This document shows positions 17,344 to 32,942 of a stretch of 33,613 bases of DNA, one piece after another (positions within the stretch are counted from its first letter, which is position 1; every line of letters starts with the position of its first letter). A model generated the notes under the pieces. That model was not told the origin of the DNA. It saw only the letters and a list, made by a program, of their open reading frames with translations, and ran no database searches. The stretch spans positions 1-33,613 of IMG/VR virus record IMGVR_UViG_3300017917_003528; one strand, written 5' to 3'. Both the position numbers and the translations under genes were made by a program. This stretch comes from a virus.

Positions 17344-17477
17344 ATAATTTTTTGTTGGAAGTACGCTTATTATAGATTGCTCGAAGCGTAATAGATATTT
17401 AAAATCTTAATGCGATATAGAGATCGCATATTCGAATATACATATATGGGGATTCTTCAAAATCACGAAAATAAGAA
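17344..17477 (-). promoter_or_regulatory. Structured leader upstream of scaffold-capsid genes
   Basis: The gap contains two perfect inverted repeats: TACGCTT (17362-17368) with AAGCGTA (17384-17390), and ATGCGAT (17410-17416) with ATCGCAT (17423-17429). A minus-strand TATAAT (17374-17369) lies in the loop of the first. It follows a terminator and precedes the most highly expressed genes, so a promoter and a folded 5' leader are plausible. The TATTTAT element found elsewhere is absent here. Confidence 0.4.
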
Positions 17478-17498
17478 ACCCTCCTTTTTGGGGAGGGT
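17478..17498 (-). terminator. Rho-independent terminator after prohead protease gene
   Basis: Stem ACCCTCC (17478-17484) with GGAGGGT (17492-17498), loop of 7. In minus-strand sense it is followed by TTCTTATTTTCGTG. It separates the protease gene from the scaffold and capsid genes. Confidence 0.75.
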
Positions 17499-17526
17499 CG
17501 GTCCAAGGAGACTATCCAAGGAGTGG

Positions 17527-22285: not shown

Positions 22286-22296
22286 AAGAATATATT

Positions 22297-22303
22297 ATAA
22301 ATA
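22297..22303 (-). promoter_or_regulatory. TATTTAT element fused to terminase stop codon
   Basis: Minus-strand TAA-TATTTAT-AATATATTCTT-ATG. The TAA is the terminase stop (22304-22306) and the ATG opens the portal gene at 22285. Confidence 0.5.
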
Positions 22304-24919: not shown

Positions 24920-24923
24920 GATT

Positions 24924-24930
24924 ATAAATA
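24924..24930 (-). promoter_or_regulatory. TATTTAT element fused to kinase-gene stop codon
   Basis: Minus-strand TAA-TATTTAT-AATC-ATG. The TAA is the stop of the P-loop kinase gene (24931-24933) and the ATG is at 24919. Confidence 0.5.
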
Positions 24931-25461
24931 TTATCCAAAAATTATTTCACGCATTTTTTCAATACGTTCTTCAGTTGTACCTGATAATGTTGTTAATGAT
25001 TTAATTTTGTGGCTACTTCTATATAACAATATTTGAATTACATTATCAATAGTTTCTCTATATTTTAAATCAGTTTCACGAACACCATTATCTTCCATTT
25101 CAACACCTTCAGGTGATACATAAAATATGTAATCGTATTCAGGTAATAATTTATATGCAGCATCACAAAATGCTTCAGCATCATAATAATCAATTGATTT
25201 AGCTGCTTTAGTAAATGCCATAACATCAATTACAGTTCTATCTGTAATAATATTTTCATTCATTAATTCAGCACAACGTTCAGCTAAAAATACAAATTGA
25301 CCTTTTAATGTTGAATCAGTATTTAATGGAATACCTAAATCACGTAGATATTTTGAACGTTCAGTAGCAAAATTATAATCTTTAAATTCAGGTAATGCTC
25401 TCAATGCATTTACCAATGTAGTTTTACCTACACTCATTGTTCCACATAAACCTATCTTCAT
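24931..25461 (-). CDS. NadR/AAA_28-like P-loop nucleoside kinase
   Basis: 176 residues. A P-loop is at the N-terminus, GTMSVGKTT (7-15), preceded by MKIGLC as beta1. After the helix come FATERSKYLRDLGIP (32-46), like the substrate region of NadR-type ribosylnicotinamide kinases and AAA_28 proteins, then TDRTVIDVMAFT (73-84), and DYIFYVSPEGVEMEDNGVRE near 115-134 with the usual lid Arg residues. The family phosphorylates nucleosides or related small molecules; the true substrate (nicotinamide riboside, deoxynucleoside or another) cannot be set by eye. The gene follows the small WEGPA protein by one base and may share its promoter. Confidence 0.75.
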   Translation of the reverse strand: MKIGLCGTMSVGKTTLVNALRALPEFKDYNFATERSKYLRDLGIPLNTDSTLKGQFVFLAERCAELMNENIITDRTVIDVMAFTKAAKSIDYYDAEAFCDAAYKLLPEYDYIFYVSPEGVEMEDNGVRETDLKYRETIDNVIQILLYRSSHKIKSLTTLSGTTEERIEKMREIIFG

Positions 25462-25462
25462 A

Positions 25463-25705
25463 TTAACCTGCTGATCTTGTATTAGTCATTGATGGATTTT
25501 TAAACCATGGTAATCCTTCACGATTACGTCTTGCTTCTTTCCAACCATCATGTGTATATTTGATACCATGAATATGATATTCTTTTTTACCATCTGCAGT
25601 AATCAATGCTGGACCTTCCCAATTATGTAATTTGTTTTCCCAAACATAAGCTACTGTACCATCTGCTTTAGTTAGTTTTTTACTTGGTTCATATTTTGTA
25701 CTCAT
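25463..25705 (-). CDS. Small MORN-like WEGPA-motif protein, unknown
   Basis: 80 residues. The central segment KADGTVAYVWENKLHNWEGPALITADGKKEYHIHGIKY shows the W/H..GPA...DG..EY...G unit, a MORN-like beta-hairpin repeat frequent in small phage proteins. The C-terminus is Arg/Asn-rich (KEARRNREGLPWFKNPS). No catalytic residues or membrane segment. It has its own Bacteroidota-type promoter, whose -7 element ends four bases before the ATG, so a nearly leaderless message is possible. It lies between the FAD oxidoreductase and kinase genes. Confidence 0.65.
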   Translation of the reverse strand: MSTKYEPSKKLTKADGTVAYVWENKLHNWEGPALITADGKKEYHIHGIKYTHDGWKEARRNREGLPWFKNPSMTNTRSAG

Positions 25706-25709
25706 ACTC

Positions 25710-25741
25710 GAAATATAATAAATTTTATTTAAATTTCCAAA
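25710..25741 (-). promoter_or_regulatory. Bacteroidota-type promoter before gene 25463-25705
   Basis: Minus-strand TTTG (25741-25738), 20-base spacer, TATATTTC (25717-25710), matching the Bacteroidota consensus TTTG / TAnnTTTG except for the last base. It matches the promoter at 27110-27141 at 27 of 30 positions compared. The -33 TTTG overlaps the end of the oxidoreductase stop region. Confidence 0.6.
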
Positions 25742-27097
25742 TTATTTAAAATGAGTCATATCACCATGAACATTATCCCATTCATCTTCTTTGTATTTAA
25801 TTAAATTTTCTACAGATAAAATACCTTGAGCTCCTGAAACTGTAATACCACGAGCAGATAAAGCATCACCTACAAAATGGACCTTAGGATATTCAATTAA
25901 AGCTAAATCATTATAATAAACTAATGGTTCAGGTGACAAATATTTTACCTCAGGAATATAAATACCCCAATCATCTTGTAATGTTGGGAATACTTTTTTC
26001 ATATCCTCAATAAAATCTTCAATATATTGAAAATATTCTCCCATAATATTTTTTACTATTTGTAAATCAAATATTTGAGATGTTACTACTCTTTCACCTT
26101 CAGACGTTCTAGATGGATTACGTGTCGGTGAATAATACAAACCAGTACCTCCAATTTGTAATTTAGAAACAACTTCTCTTGACCATTCAAATGGTTTTTC
26201 AATACCATTGATTTCCATCAAGATACCAAAGTTAGTCATATCATTTCTATAACGCTCATCTTTTTTAGCATGACCATTGTAACTGTGATCTCCATATGTT
26301 TCTTCTACAGCAACATAAGCTGCATTATTGTTTGTACAAAATGAACGTAATGAAACACCTTTATCTTCAAATTTACGATATAATTTAAAATCGTAACTAA
26401 TATCAATTAAATCCTGGAAGTGTTTTTGTGGTGCTTCAAATCTAACTCCAATTTGAACTGATTTTGGTTCTGTTTCTAATTGATATTCATCTTGAATTTC
26501 TTGTACAAAGTCAATACCTGATTTACCTACTGCGAAAATCAATTGGTCATAATCAATAGTATATTGACCTTCTTTACCCCTAACAGTTACATAAACTGAG
26601 TGCATTTCAAAATCAACTTTAAATACTCGTTCATTCCAAATAAAATTAACACCTTTAGATACTAAATAATCGTACCAATTTTTTCCAATTTCATGAAGAT
26701 AATCTGTACCAACATGCCACACCGGAAATAATCGTAACCCAAAATATGGTTTAATAAAATCAGGCTCTTCAACTGGATTGGAACATTGTACTTCCTCTGG
26801 TTTAGGGTGAAAACGTTTAAAATTATTAATTACTTCATCCATTAAATTCATTGCTTTCTTTTCACCAACATATTTTGAAAGTTGACCTCCAATAGCAGTA
26901 TGATAAGTTAATTTACCATCAGACCATCCACCAGCACCTAAAAATCCAGTCATTACTTCACTTGGTTTTCTTCTATATGGGTCATTCCCCATATCAATAA
27001 TGGTAATGTTTTCACCAGGAAAACCATTGTCAACTAATTTAGTTGCAGCATTGACACCTGCTACACCTGCTCCTACAATTACAATTTTTTTACTCAT
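25742..27097 (-). CDS. FAD-dependent oxidoreductase (COG2509-like NAD(FAD)-utilizing dehydrogenase)
   Basis: 451 residues, full length for the family. The N-terminus carries a Rossmann dinucleotide motif, IVIVGAGVAGVNAA, with GAGVAG at 9-14 and an acidic D35 at the end of the second strand (TIIDMGN). GAGGWSDGKLTYHTAIGG at 54-71 matches the GA.SDGKL signature of COG2509-type flavoproteins. A second sheet contains YDQLIFAVGKSG near 190-200, and the C-terminal FAD segment VHFVGDALSARGITVSGAQGI at about 408-428 closes the site. The substrate is unknown. The protein has no membrane segment. It stands behind a terminator and its own host-type promoter, unlike the structural genes around it, and has the look of cargo. 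Confidence 0.85.
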   Translation of the reverse strand: MSKKIVIVGAGVAGVNAATKLVDNGFPGENITIIDMGNDPYRRKPSEVMTGFLGAGGWSDGKLTYHTAIGGQLSKYVGEKKAMNLMDEVINNFKRFHPKPEEVQCSNPVEEPDFIKPYFGLRLFPVWHVGTDYLHEIGKNWYDYLVSKGVNFIWNERVFKVDFEMHSVYVTVRGKEGQYTIDYDQLIFAVGKSGIDFVQEIQDEYQLETEPKSVQIGVRFEAPQKHFQDLIDISYDFKLYRKFEDKGVSLRSFCTNNNAAYVAVEETYGDHSYNGHAKKDERYRNDMTNFGILMEINGIEKPFEWSREVVSKLQIGGTGLYYSPTRNPSRTSEGERVVTSQIFDLQIVKNIMGEYFQYIEDFIEDMKKVFPTLQDDWGIYIPEVKYLSPEPLVYYNDLALIEYPKVHFVGDALSARGITVSGAQGILSVENLIKYKEDEWDNVHGDMTHFK

Positions 27098-27109
27098 ATG
27101 CTTAACACG

Positions 27110-27141
27110 TTAATATAATATATTTTATTTTAAATTCCAAA
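27110..27141 (-). promoter_or_regulatory. Bacteroidota-type promoter before the FAD oxidoreductase gene
   Basis: Minus-strand TTTG (27141-27138), 20-base spacer, TATATTAA (27117-27110). The ATG follows 12 bases later at 27097. The sequence is a near copy of the promoter at 25710-25741 and sits immediately downstream of a terminator. Confidence 0.55.
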
Positions 27142-27147
27142 TTAAAG

Positions 27148-27171
27148 GTGGCACCTTTTTAGGGGTGCCAC
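27148..27171 (-). terminator. Rho-independent terminator before the oxidoreductase block
   Basis: Perfect 8-bp stem GTGGCACC (27148-27155) with GGTGCCAC (27164-27171), loop TTTTTAGG. In minus-strand sense it is followed by CTTTAATTT. It ends transcription from the upstream internal-protein genes. The bases from 27172 to 27223 hold only weak hairpins. Confidence 0.8.
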
Positions 27172-27223
27172 AGCTACCATATTTTTATCTCTTTCGAGCG
27201 ACTGGCTATGAATCAGTCTATAA

Positions 27224-27865
27224 TTAGATTTTAGAAGTTAAAGCTTTAACTCCTTGTATAATTTCTGTTCCTTTTAATCCTGCTAAACTTCCTTTAGCAA
27301 CACCATACACTGCTGCTCCTACTCCTTTTCCTGCTAAAGCACCCCCAATTGCTTCTGCTGAAGCTAAACCTGCGGATACAGCAGCGGCACCTAAAATACT
27401 ATAAAGTAATACTTTAGCGGCTGTTTCTAATTCTTGTTCTGTTTTAATATTAGCTTTTTTAGCTATGCCTGTTACTTTGATAATTTTTTTCAAAATACCT
27501 AAGTATTTTTCTTCTAAATGATGACCAGCATGTACTAAAGCATCTCCAGCTGTTACATTACCTTTTTCTTTAGCAAATTTTGTAGCTACTTTTTTAACAA
27601 TCCCACCAATAATTTCTAATAATTTAGGAGCTGATAGTAAAATGGAAATTATAAGAGAAGCAACAGCCTCATTTAATTCCATATCAGCTTCAGAAACTTG
27701 TTCTTTAATTTCTGCTGTTTGTCCTTGTAAAGAGGCTAAACCACTTGAAAAAGCAGCAGCTACTTCATTATCTAATTGGTCTAATTCTGCTTCATCAGAA
27801 GTTGGTTCTTCTGCTTCAAATAGTTTTTGGGAAGCTAAATATGCTTTTAAGTCAAAATTACTCAT
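27224..27865 (-). CDS. Acidic-leader, hydrophobic-core protein; putative ejected or membrane-active virion protein
   Basis: 213 residues. Residues 1-66 are acidic and polar (EAEEPTSDEAELDQLDNE) and hold possible gp21 sites at LFE17|A and LNE66|A. Directly after the second site comes a hydrophobic segment (VASLIISILLSAPKLLEIIGGIV, 68-90), then Lys-rich helices, and a second hydrophobic Gly/Ala-rich region at about 150-200 (VLLYSILGAAAVSAGLASAEA). The pattern suggests a precursor whose acidic part is removed in the prohead, leaving a membrane-active domain, for example a protein ejected with DNA. A holin or a plain membrane protein is the alternative. It overlaps the cupin-like gene by eight bases. 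Confidence 0.6.
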   Translation of the reverse strand: MSNFDLKAYLASQKLFEAEEPTSDEAELDQLDNEVAAAFSSGLASLQGQTAEIKEQVSEADMELNEAVASLIISILLSAPKLLEIIGGIVKKVATKFAKEKGNVTAGDALVHAGHHLEEKYLGILKKIIKVTGIAKKANIKTEQELETAAKVLLYSILGAAAVSAGLASAEAIGGALAGKGVGAAVYGVAKGSLAGLKGTEIIQGVKALTSKI

Positions 27866-29716: not shown

Positions 29717-29720
29717 AATT

Positions 29721-29727
29721 ATAAATA
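29721..29727 (-). promoter_or_regulatory. TATTTAT element fused to upstream stop codon
   Basis: Minus-strand TAA-TATTTAT-AATT-ATG. The TAA is the stop of the gene 29728-30936 and the ATG is at 29716. Confidence 0.5.
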
Positions 29728-32760: not shown

Positions 32761-32765
32761 AATTA

Positions 32766-32936
32766 TTATTTTTTATCTTCGTCGATAGAGGCTTTGCGAT
32801 ATTCAGAAACTAATTTCTTAATTTCACCTAACGCTTTTCTAGCACGACCGTGAGCAGCTTTAGTAGTTTTAGCATGTTCAGCTTTAAACTCTTCAAATAA
32901 TAACTCCATTTTTTCAAATAATTCTTGTGTGTTCAT
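32766..32936 (-). CDS. Hc1/histone-H1-like DNA-binding protein
   Basis: 56 residues from ATG at 32936 to TAA at 32766-32768, filling the gap between its neighbours. The protein begins MNTQELFEKMELLFEEF, a helix, followed by KTTKAAHGRARKALGEIKK and LVSEYRKASIDEDKK. This matches the short Hc1-type histone-H1-like proteins of Bacteroidota, which share an acidic first helix, a NKAAGTRARK-like core and a basic second helix. In the host family it is thought to bind and compact DNA. In the phage it could act in the head or on the host nucleoid. The upstream sequence is A-rich with no Shine-Dalgarno. Confidence 0.75.
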   Translation of the reverse strand: MNTQELFEKMELLFEEFKAEHAKTTKAAHGRARKALGEIKKLVSEYRKASIDEDKK

Positions 32937-32942
32937 ATACTT

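Follow-up and report, generated by a model that had tools for sequence, protein, structure and literature searches.

Promoters of a rigidly spaced non-late class and a conserved two-hairpin RNA at an oxidoreductase gene in a T4-like phage of Bacteroidota

The locus studied here raises the question of how a small gene block embedded in a late region of a phage genome is transcribed. The window, a stretch of 33,613 nucleotides (IMG/VR virus record IMGVR_UViG_3300017917_003528), covers the head and packaging part of the late region of a T4-like phage, with genes for terminase, a T4-type portal and thymidylate kinase. Two minus-strand sites consisting of TTTG, 20 nt and a second box had been predicted ahead of an oxidoreductase gene and of the 80-aa gene that lies behind it, and both were read directly in the sequence (Table 1). 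P1 comprises TTTG at 27141-27138, 20 nt and TATATTAA at 27117-27110, with the oxidoreductase ATG at 27097; P2 comprises TTTG at 25741-25738, 20 nt and TATATTTC at 25717-25710, with the ATG of the 80-aa gene at 25705. The transcription start of P1 is predicted about 4-5 nt downstream of the box, with a leader of about 8 nt. At P2 the box ends exactly 4 nt before the ATG, so that a leaderless mRNA is predicted. Taken alone, the window is weak evidence for promoters, since the looser pattern TTTG-N18..22-TATATTWM matched seven times (control, two) and a spacer of exactly 20 nt was found at P1 and P2 only.

Table 1. Positions of the features at the oxidoreductase locus, numbered along the window
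Feature	Position	Strand	Support or remark
P1, oxidoreductase gene promoter	27110..27141	-	sequence; conservation; phage-wide class
P2, promoter of the 80-aa gene	25710..25741	-	sequence; match in 44/148 loci
451-aa FAD/NAD(P)-binding oxidoreductase	25742..27097	-	Pfam Pyr_redox_2 4.8e-9; PHROG dehydrogenase 8.8e-24
80-aa conserved protein, gene behind P2	25463..25705	-	homologs in 154 loci
Upstream gene, 213 aa, in hypervariable slot	27224..27865	-	stop codon ends 5-6 nt before SL1
RNA hairpin SL1, GACUG-AUUCAUAGC-CAGUC	27200..27218	-	covariation
RNA hairpin SL2, GGU-AGCUGUGGC-ACC, loop complementary to SL1 loop	27164..27178	-	covarying pairs
Terminator-like hairpin GUGGCACC-CCUAAAAA-GGUGCCAC, then CCUUUAAUUU	27148..27171	-	fold -14.9 kcal/mol

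Four long IMG/VR contigs carrying the same oxidoreductase (128-166 kb, genes almost all on one strand) were surveyed for further sites. In their noncoding DNA the pattern TTTG-N19..21-TATATT occurred 24, 19, 12 and 15 times, compared with 1.7, 1.6, 0.6 and 0.6 expected. In total there were 70 sites, where the noncoding share of the contigs predicts about 4.5, and every one of the 70 had a spacer of 20 nt. Forward and reverse strand counts were, for example, 23/1 and 25/4, and the reversed pattern gave 0-2 matches. Sites fixed solely at TTTG-20-TA..T yielded the logo TTTGG-N19-TATATTWA, in which CTT often follows TTTGG. An AT-rich genome and the seven looser matches in the window would be in keeping with P1 and P2 being chance sequence, or a Bacteroidota translation-initiation signature, and no promoters. 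This reading is very improbable in view of the excess of sites, their exact spacing, the low counts of control patterns and the conservation of P1 even where a terminator replaces the whole spacer; spacing and controls ruled out base composition or chance as their origin. Sequence comparison confirms P1 and P2 as real promoters of a virus-wide non-late class that is common to relatives. The original prediction had confined such promoters to the oxidoreductase block, which holds within the window but not in relatives, where sites also occur elsewhere, mostly in non-structural regions.

P1 was kept in 111 of 126 distinct loci, with a spacer of 20 nt in 97 and of 19 nt in 14, while shifted-spacer controls gave 0, 2, 2 and 12. 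The 15 loci outside this count retain a -7 box similar to TATATTTA, and their -33 position mostly reads ATTG or CTTG. The promoter persists despite complete spacer replacement: in 55 loci the spacer is the 3' half of the terminator, placing TTTG in the terminator loop, and TTTG lies inside the terminator in about half of the loci. A terminator-promoter fusion was also considered as a rule of the whole class and was rejected at about twice the expectation overall (15 vs 8.6, four genomes); it is retained for the P1 locus alone. P2 matches came nearly all from the closer clade (controls, 2-3), and in these relatives the distance from box to ATG is nearly always exactly 4 nt. The match of the P1 and P2 spacers at 17 of 20 positions, to which attention had been drawn initially, turned out to be an outlier that is neither conserved nor general. 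Spacers in other genomes agreed at 2-15 of 20 positions, with means over 34 pairs of 10.6/20 within and 9.4/20 between genomes, and the match was ruled out as a functional feature.

The sites had further been assigned to the Bacteroidota type and taken to indicate a Bacteroidota host. The host claim is supported by the closest annotated relative of the window phage, Flavobacterium phage immuto (68% at the nucleotide level over the terminase). Its promoters keep the same -33/-7 register as G/TTTG-20-TATMTTTA, mostly with GTTG at -33 and again with A at the end. The promoters of F. johnsoniae have the box TAnnTTTG with a near-invariant G and a weak -33 box (PMC6847099). The host-type TTTG was present and correctly spaced from the -7 box at P1, P2 and the 70 genome-wide sites, but the near-invariant host G at -5 is absent from the class. 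Of 76 class sites, 69 have A as the final base of the -7 box and one has G, and the two boxes of the window end in C and A at this position. Canonical TAHHTTTG in phage noncoding DNA was not enriched (16 on the plus vs 17 on the minus strand) and never occurred with a correctly placed TTTG; for lack of enrichment, the idea that these phages use canonical host TAnnTTTG promoters was rejected. The assignment therefore stands for the type and the -33/-7 register but not for identity with the host consensus. Judged by its boxes, the P1/P2 pair is similar in its working to a Bacteroidota primary-sigma promoter, minus one defining canonical feature.

Because the host G is missing from the -7 box and the canonical box is not enriched, a phage-modified or activator-assisted (middle) class is possible. 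In a middle-type class the host polymerase would keep its -7 contact, a MotA-like phage activator would sit on the TTTGGCTT box near -30, and the block would be middle, not early. The very strict TTTGG, the rigid 20-nt spacing, the CTT that often comes next, the -7 box without G and the lack of a separate canonical TAnnTTTG class all speak in favour of this alternative. The T4 MotA box, (a/t)(a/t)(a/t)TGCTTtA, is likewise centred at -30 and lies 12 +/- 1 bp from the -10 element (PMC2988021). That distance differs, however, from the phage arrangement of TTTGG(CTT) with 24 nt between the starts of TTTG and TATATT. Moreover, immuto carries GTTG at this position, which fits a -33 contact, and some members of the class, if it is the sole non-late one, must act before any phage protein exists. 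We consider a middle-type class unlikely.

The gene content of the promoter classes bears on the timing of the block. The non-late class precedes DNA polymerase, ssb, recA/exo, dpdA, folE, groEL and small-gene clusters, and the late box ATATTTAT(A) precedes terminase, portal, sheath, tape measure and baseplate genes. The two classes were clustered along the genome with p 0.001-0.02 in three of five genomes, and with p 0.06 and 0.23 in the other two. In the window the late box occurs on the sense strand, for instance at 24920-24931, 22286-22303 and 29717-29727. Its distance to the ATG peaks at 4-5 nt, suggesting that late messages are leaderless. Gene content and clustering bear out the prediction of a small non-late block inside a late region; the oxidoreductase block is, by these sequence features, a non-late island, and its "early" timing would follow from gene content only. 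At 17344-17526 and 32761-32942 the window has two long stretches between genes, each of about 180 nt. The contigs of loci L014, L046 and L083 carry an ORF of 237-243 aa with a weak match to sigma70 region 2, a candidate late sigma factor. Homologs of dpdA, queC, queD, queE and folE on the contigs of L012 and L014 suggest 7-deazaguanine DNA modification.

The AlphaFold model of the oxidoreductase had a pLDDT of 87.5, and its closest fold in Foldseek was VP0956 (3nlc), an FAD-dependent dehydrogenase-like protein that shares the fold over the whole length (E 1.1e-20, TM 0.70) at only 19% identity. The 80-aa protein matched no Pfam, NCBIfam or PHROG family at E<=0.001. The slot upstream of the oxidoreductase is filled by 45 gene clusters among 139, and in 51 loci a conserved RNA begins 6 nt past the upstream stop codon, whatever the upstream gene. 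Since the upstream gene is hypervariable, the downstream gene is the conserved partner of this RNA. In four loci (L035, L052, L063 and L064) the oxidoreductase is immediately preceded by a gene whose C terminus is endonuclease-like (GRQKTAFGYKWKYK); L035 and L063 have this gene between the RNA and the oxidoreductase. About twenty more loci are longer at this place by several hundred bases. Gene insertions upstream of the oxidoreductase in L155 and L187 have an SL1-only copy of the RNA on one side and a full copy on the other, which suggests cassette exchange at the RNA element.

After the upstream gene the module consists of SL1, an A-rich linker, SL2, an intrinsic terminator and P1. The RNA and terminator adjoining P1 had not been part of the original prediction. 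In relatives SL1 follows the consensus GACNG-AUUCAUAGC-CNGUC, and in SL2 three pairs enclose the loop A[GU]CUGUGGC. Of 152 sequences, 147, 150 and 133 have complementary bases at these three pairs, and the next two positions are not complementary; the stem is exactly 3 bp long and shows 11 fully complementary combinations. In a 30-sequence alignment, 99.5% of cells were paired (86.3% when shuffled, 28-47% when slid), and covariation was 0.360 vs 0.106. The two 9-nt loops offer six potential loop-loop pairs, UCAUAG with CUGUGG, all of them standard in 152 of 152 sequences. The few changes in loop 2 either fall at an unpaired position or keep the pairing. As the kissing pairs barely vary, and four of the six never do, covariation at them is almost silent. 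In a single locus (L025:1-1140) SL1 is lost beside the module, and the SL2 loop is changed too (UGCUAUAGC), in agreement with the kissing model.

In 146 of 152 relatives the terminator-like hairpin takes its 5' arm from the 3' side of SL2, and because of this overlap SL2 and the terminator are mutually exclusive. The relatives have the stable hairpin (mean -17.4 kcal/mol) and T-rich tract of an intrinsic terminator, with at least 4 T in the 8 nt past the hairpin in 121 of 152, and the window's own U-tract (CCUUUAAUUU) is weak. The standard terminator is absent from one small clade (L097, L118, L149, L181 and L183). The RNA is single-copy, with one strong CM match per genome in long contigs. 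SL1 was found upstream in 73 of 77 loci located via the oxidoreductase protein alone, and a search with the RNA pattern only reached the oxidoreductase in nearly all loci. No family of Rfam 15 matched the RNA above the gathering threshold, and a search of 84,980 species genomes for cellular copies gave three matches, all without the stem or the oxidoreductase, so that none of these genomes was found to carry it. The RNA was not found near the distant oxidoreductase homologs of Campylobacter and gut phages, and phage immuto has neither the oxidoreductase nor the SL1/SL2 RNA. A literature search on this RNA and on Flavobacterium phage promoters found nothing. A dedicated late promoter for the RNA was rejected, as the ATTTATA-like stretch before SL1 would, if the usual 4-5 nt offset applies, start the RNA inside SL1.

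One explanation of the RNA is that it acts in trans as a small RNA, or stabilises the 3' end of the upstream late transcript, and that the overlap of SL2 with the terminator is a by-product of compactness. The start of the RNA right past the stop codon of any upstream gene, its end in a terminator, an invariant 9-nt loop that could serve as seed, and the small clade that keeps SL1 and SL2 without a standard terminator are consistent with this. On the other hand, the RNA is tightly linked to the oxidoreductase and not to the upstream gene, SL2 shares its strand with the terminator in nearly all relatives, and the loops are complementary to each other. A small RNA or 3'-end element, the principal alternative for the RNA, is somewhat doubtful.

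We consider it likely that P1 and P2 are non-late promoters read by a host-type RNA polymerase and that a kissing-loop attenuator precedes P1. A conserved structured RNA that excludes the terminator, as an attenuator has, was found in the covarying hairpins and their overlap with the terminator arm. Through the two promoters the oxidoreductase, the 80-aa gene and the genes that follow would be expressed without depending on the late transcription around them, which is driven from the ATATTTAT box, with P2 adding the leaderless message. Late transcripts from the upstream gene would meet the RNA, and its two loops could kiss. The kissing form should allow read-through because it occupies the strand that otherwise builds the terminator; if the loops did not kiss, the terminator would end late transcription immediately ahead of the point where P1 initiates anew. 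We more tentatively propose a new phage RNA family, in which two near-invariant 9-nt-loop hairpins would kiss as an antiterminator and, on sensing a metabolite or protein, switch late read-through into the oxidoreductase gene. This RNA would be fused, in many relatives, to a promoter with its -33 box in the terminator loop. Against the switch model stands P1 itself, which would bypass any switch and so make the value of such control questionable.

These results yield a testable genome-wide promoter code for T4-like phages of Bacteroidota, which are abundant but little studied. The code consists of a rigid non-late class plus a late class, and both have leaderless members. The results also reveal a very widespread single-copy phage RNA that is not in Rfam and accompanies a single, highly conserved enzyme. 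Should the RNA prove to be a switch, its ligand would give a clue to the role of the oxidoreductase during infection.

The non-late promoters share with the sigma-ABfr promoters, those of the Bacteroidota primary sigma factor, the TTTG at -33, the distance to -7, the TAnnTT core and a transcription start 4-5 nt past the box, as implied by the leaderless phage genes. They differ from them in the -7 box, which almost never ends in G, in a much stronger -33 box (TTTGG) and in the rigid spacing. The immuto promoters agree in register, in the -7 box and in the late box, and mostly differ in the base at the start of the -33 box. As in T4, non-late and late classes are separate, whereas spacing and boxes are different. 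The T4 late promoter consensus is TATAAATA, and the late box described here is its reverse complement on the sense strand. The resemblance to T4 MotA middle promoters is partial and concerns the box centred near -30. Transcription-terminating riboswitches and kissing-hairpin RNAs such as guanidine-II and fluoride likewise place a small two-hairpin or pseudoknot fold before a terminator with which it shares a strand; unlike these, the RNA described here is without an Rfam match, is found in phages only and has its own promoter past the terminator.
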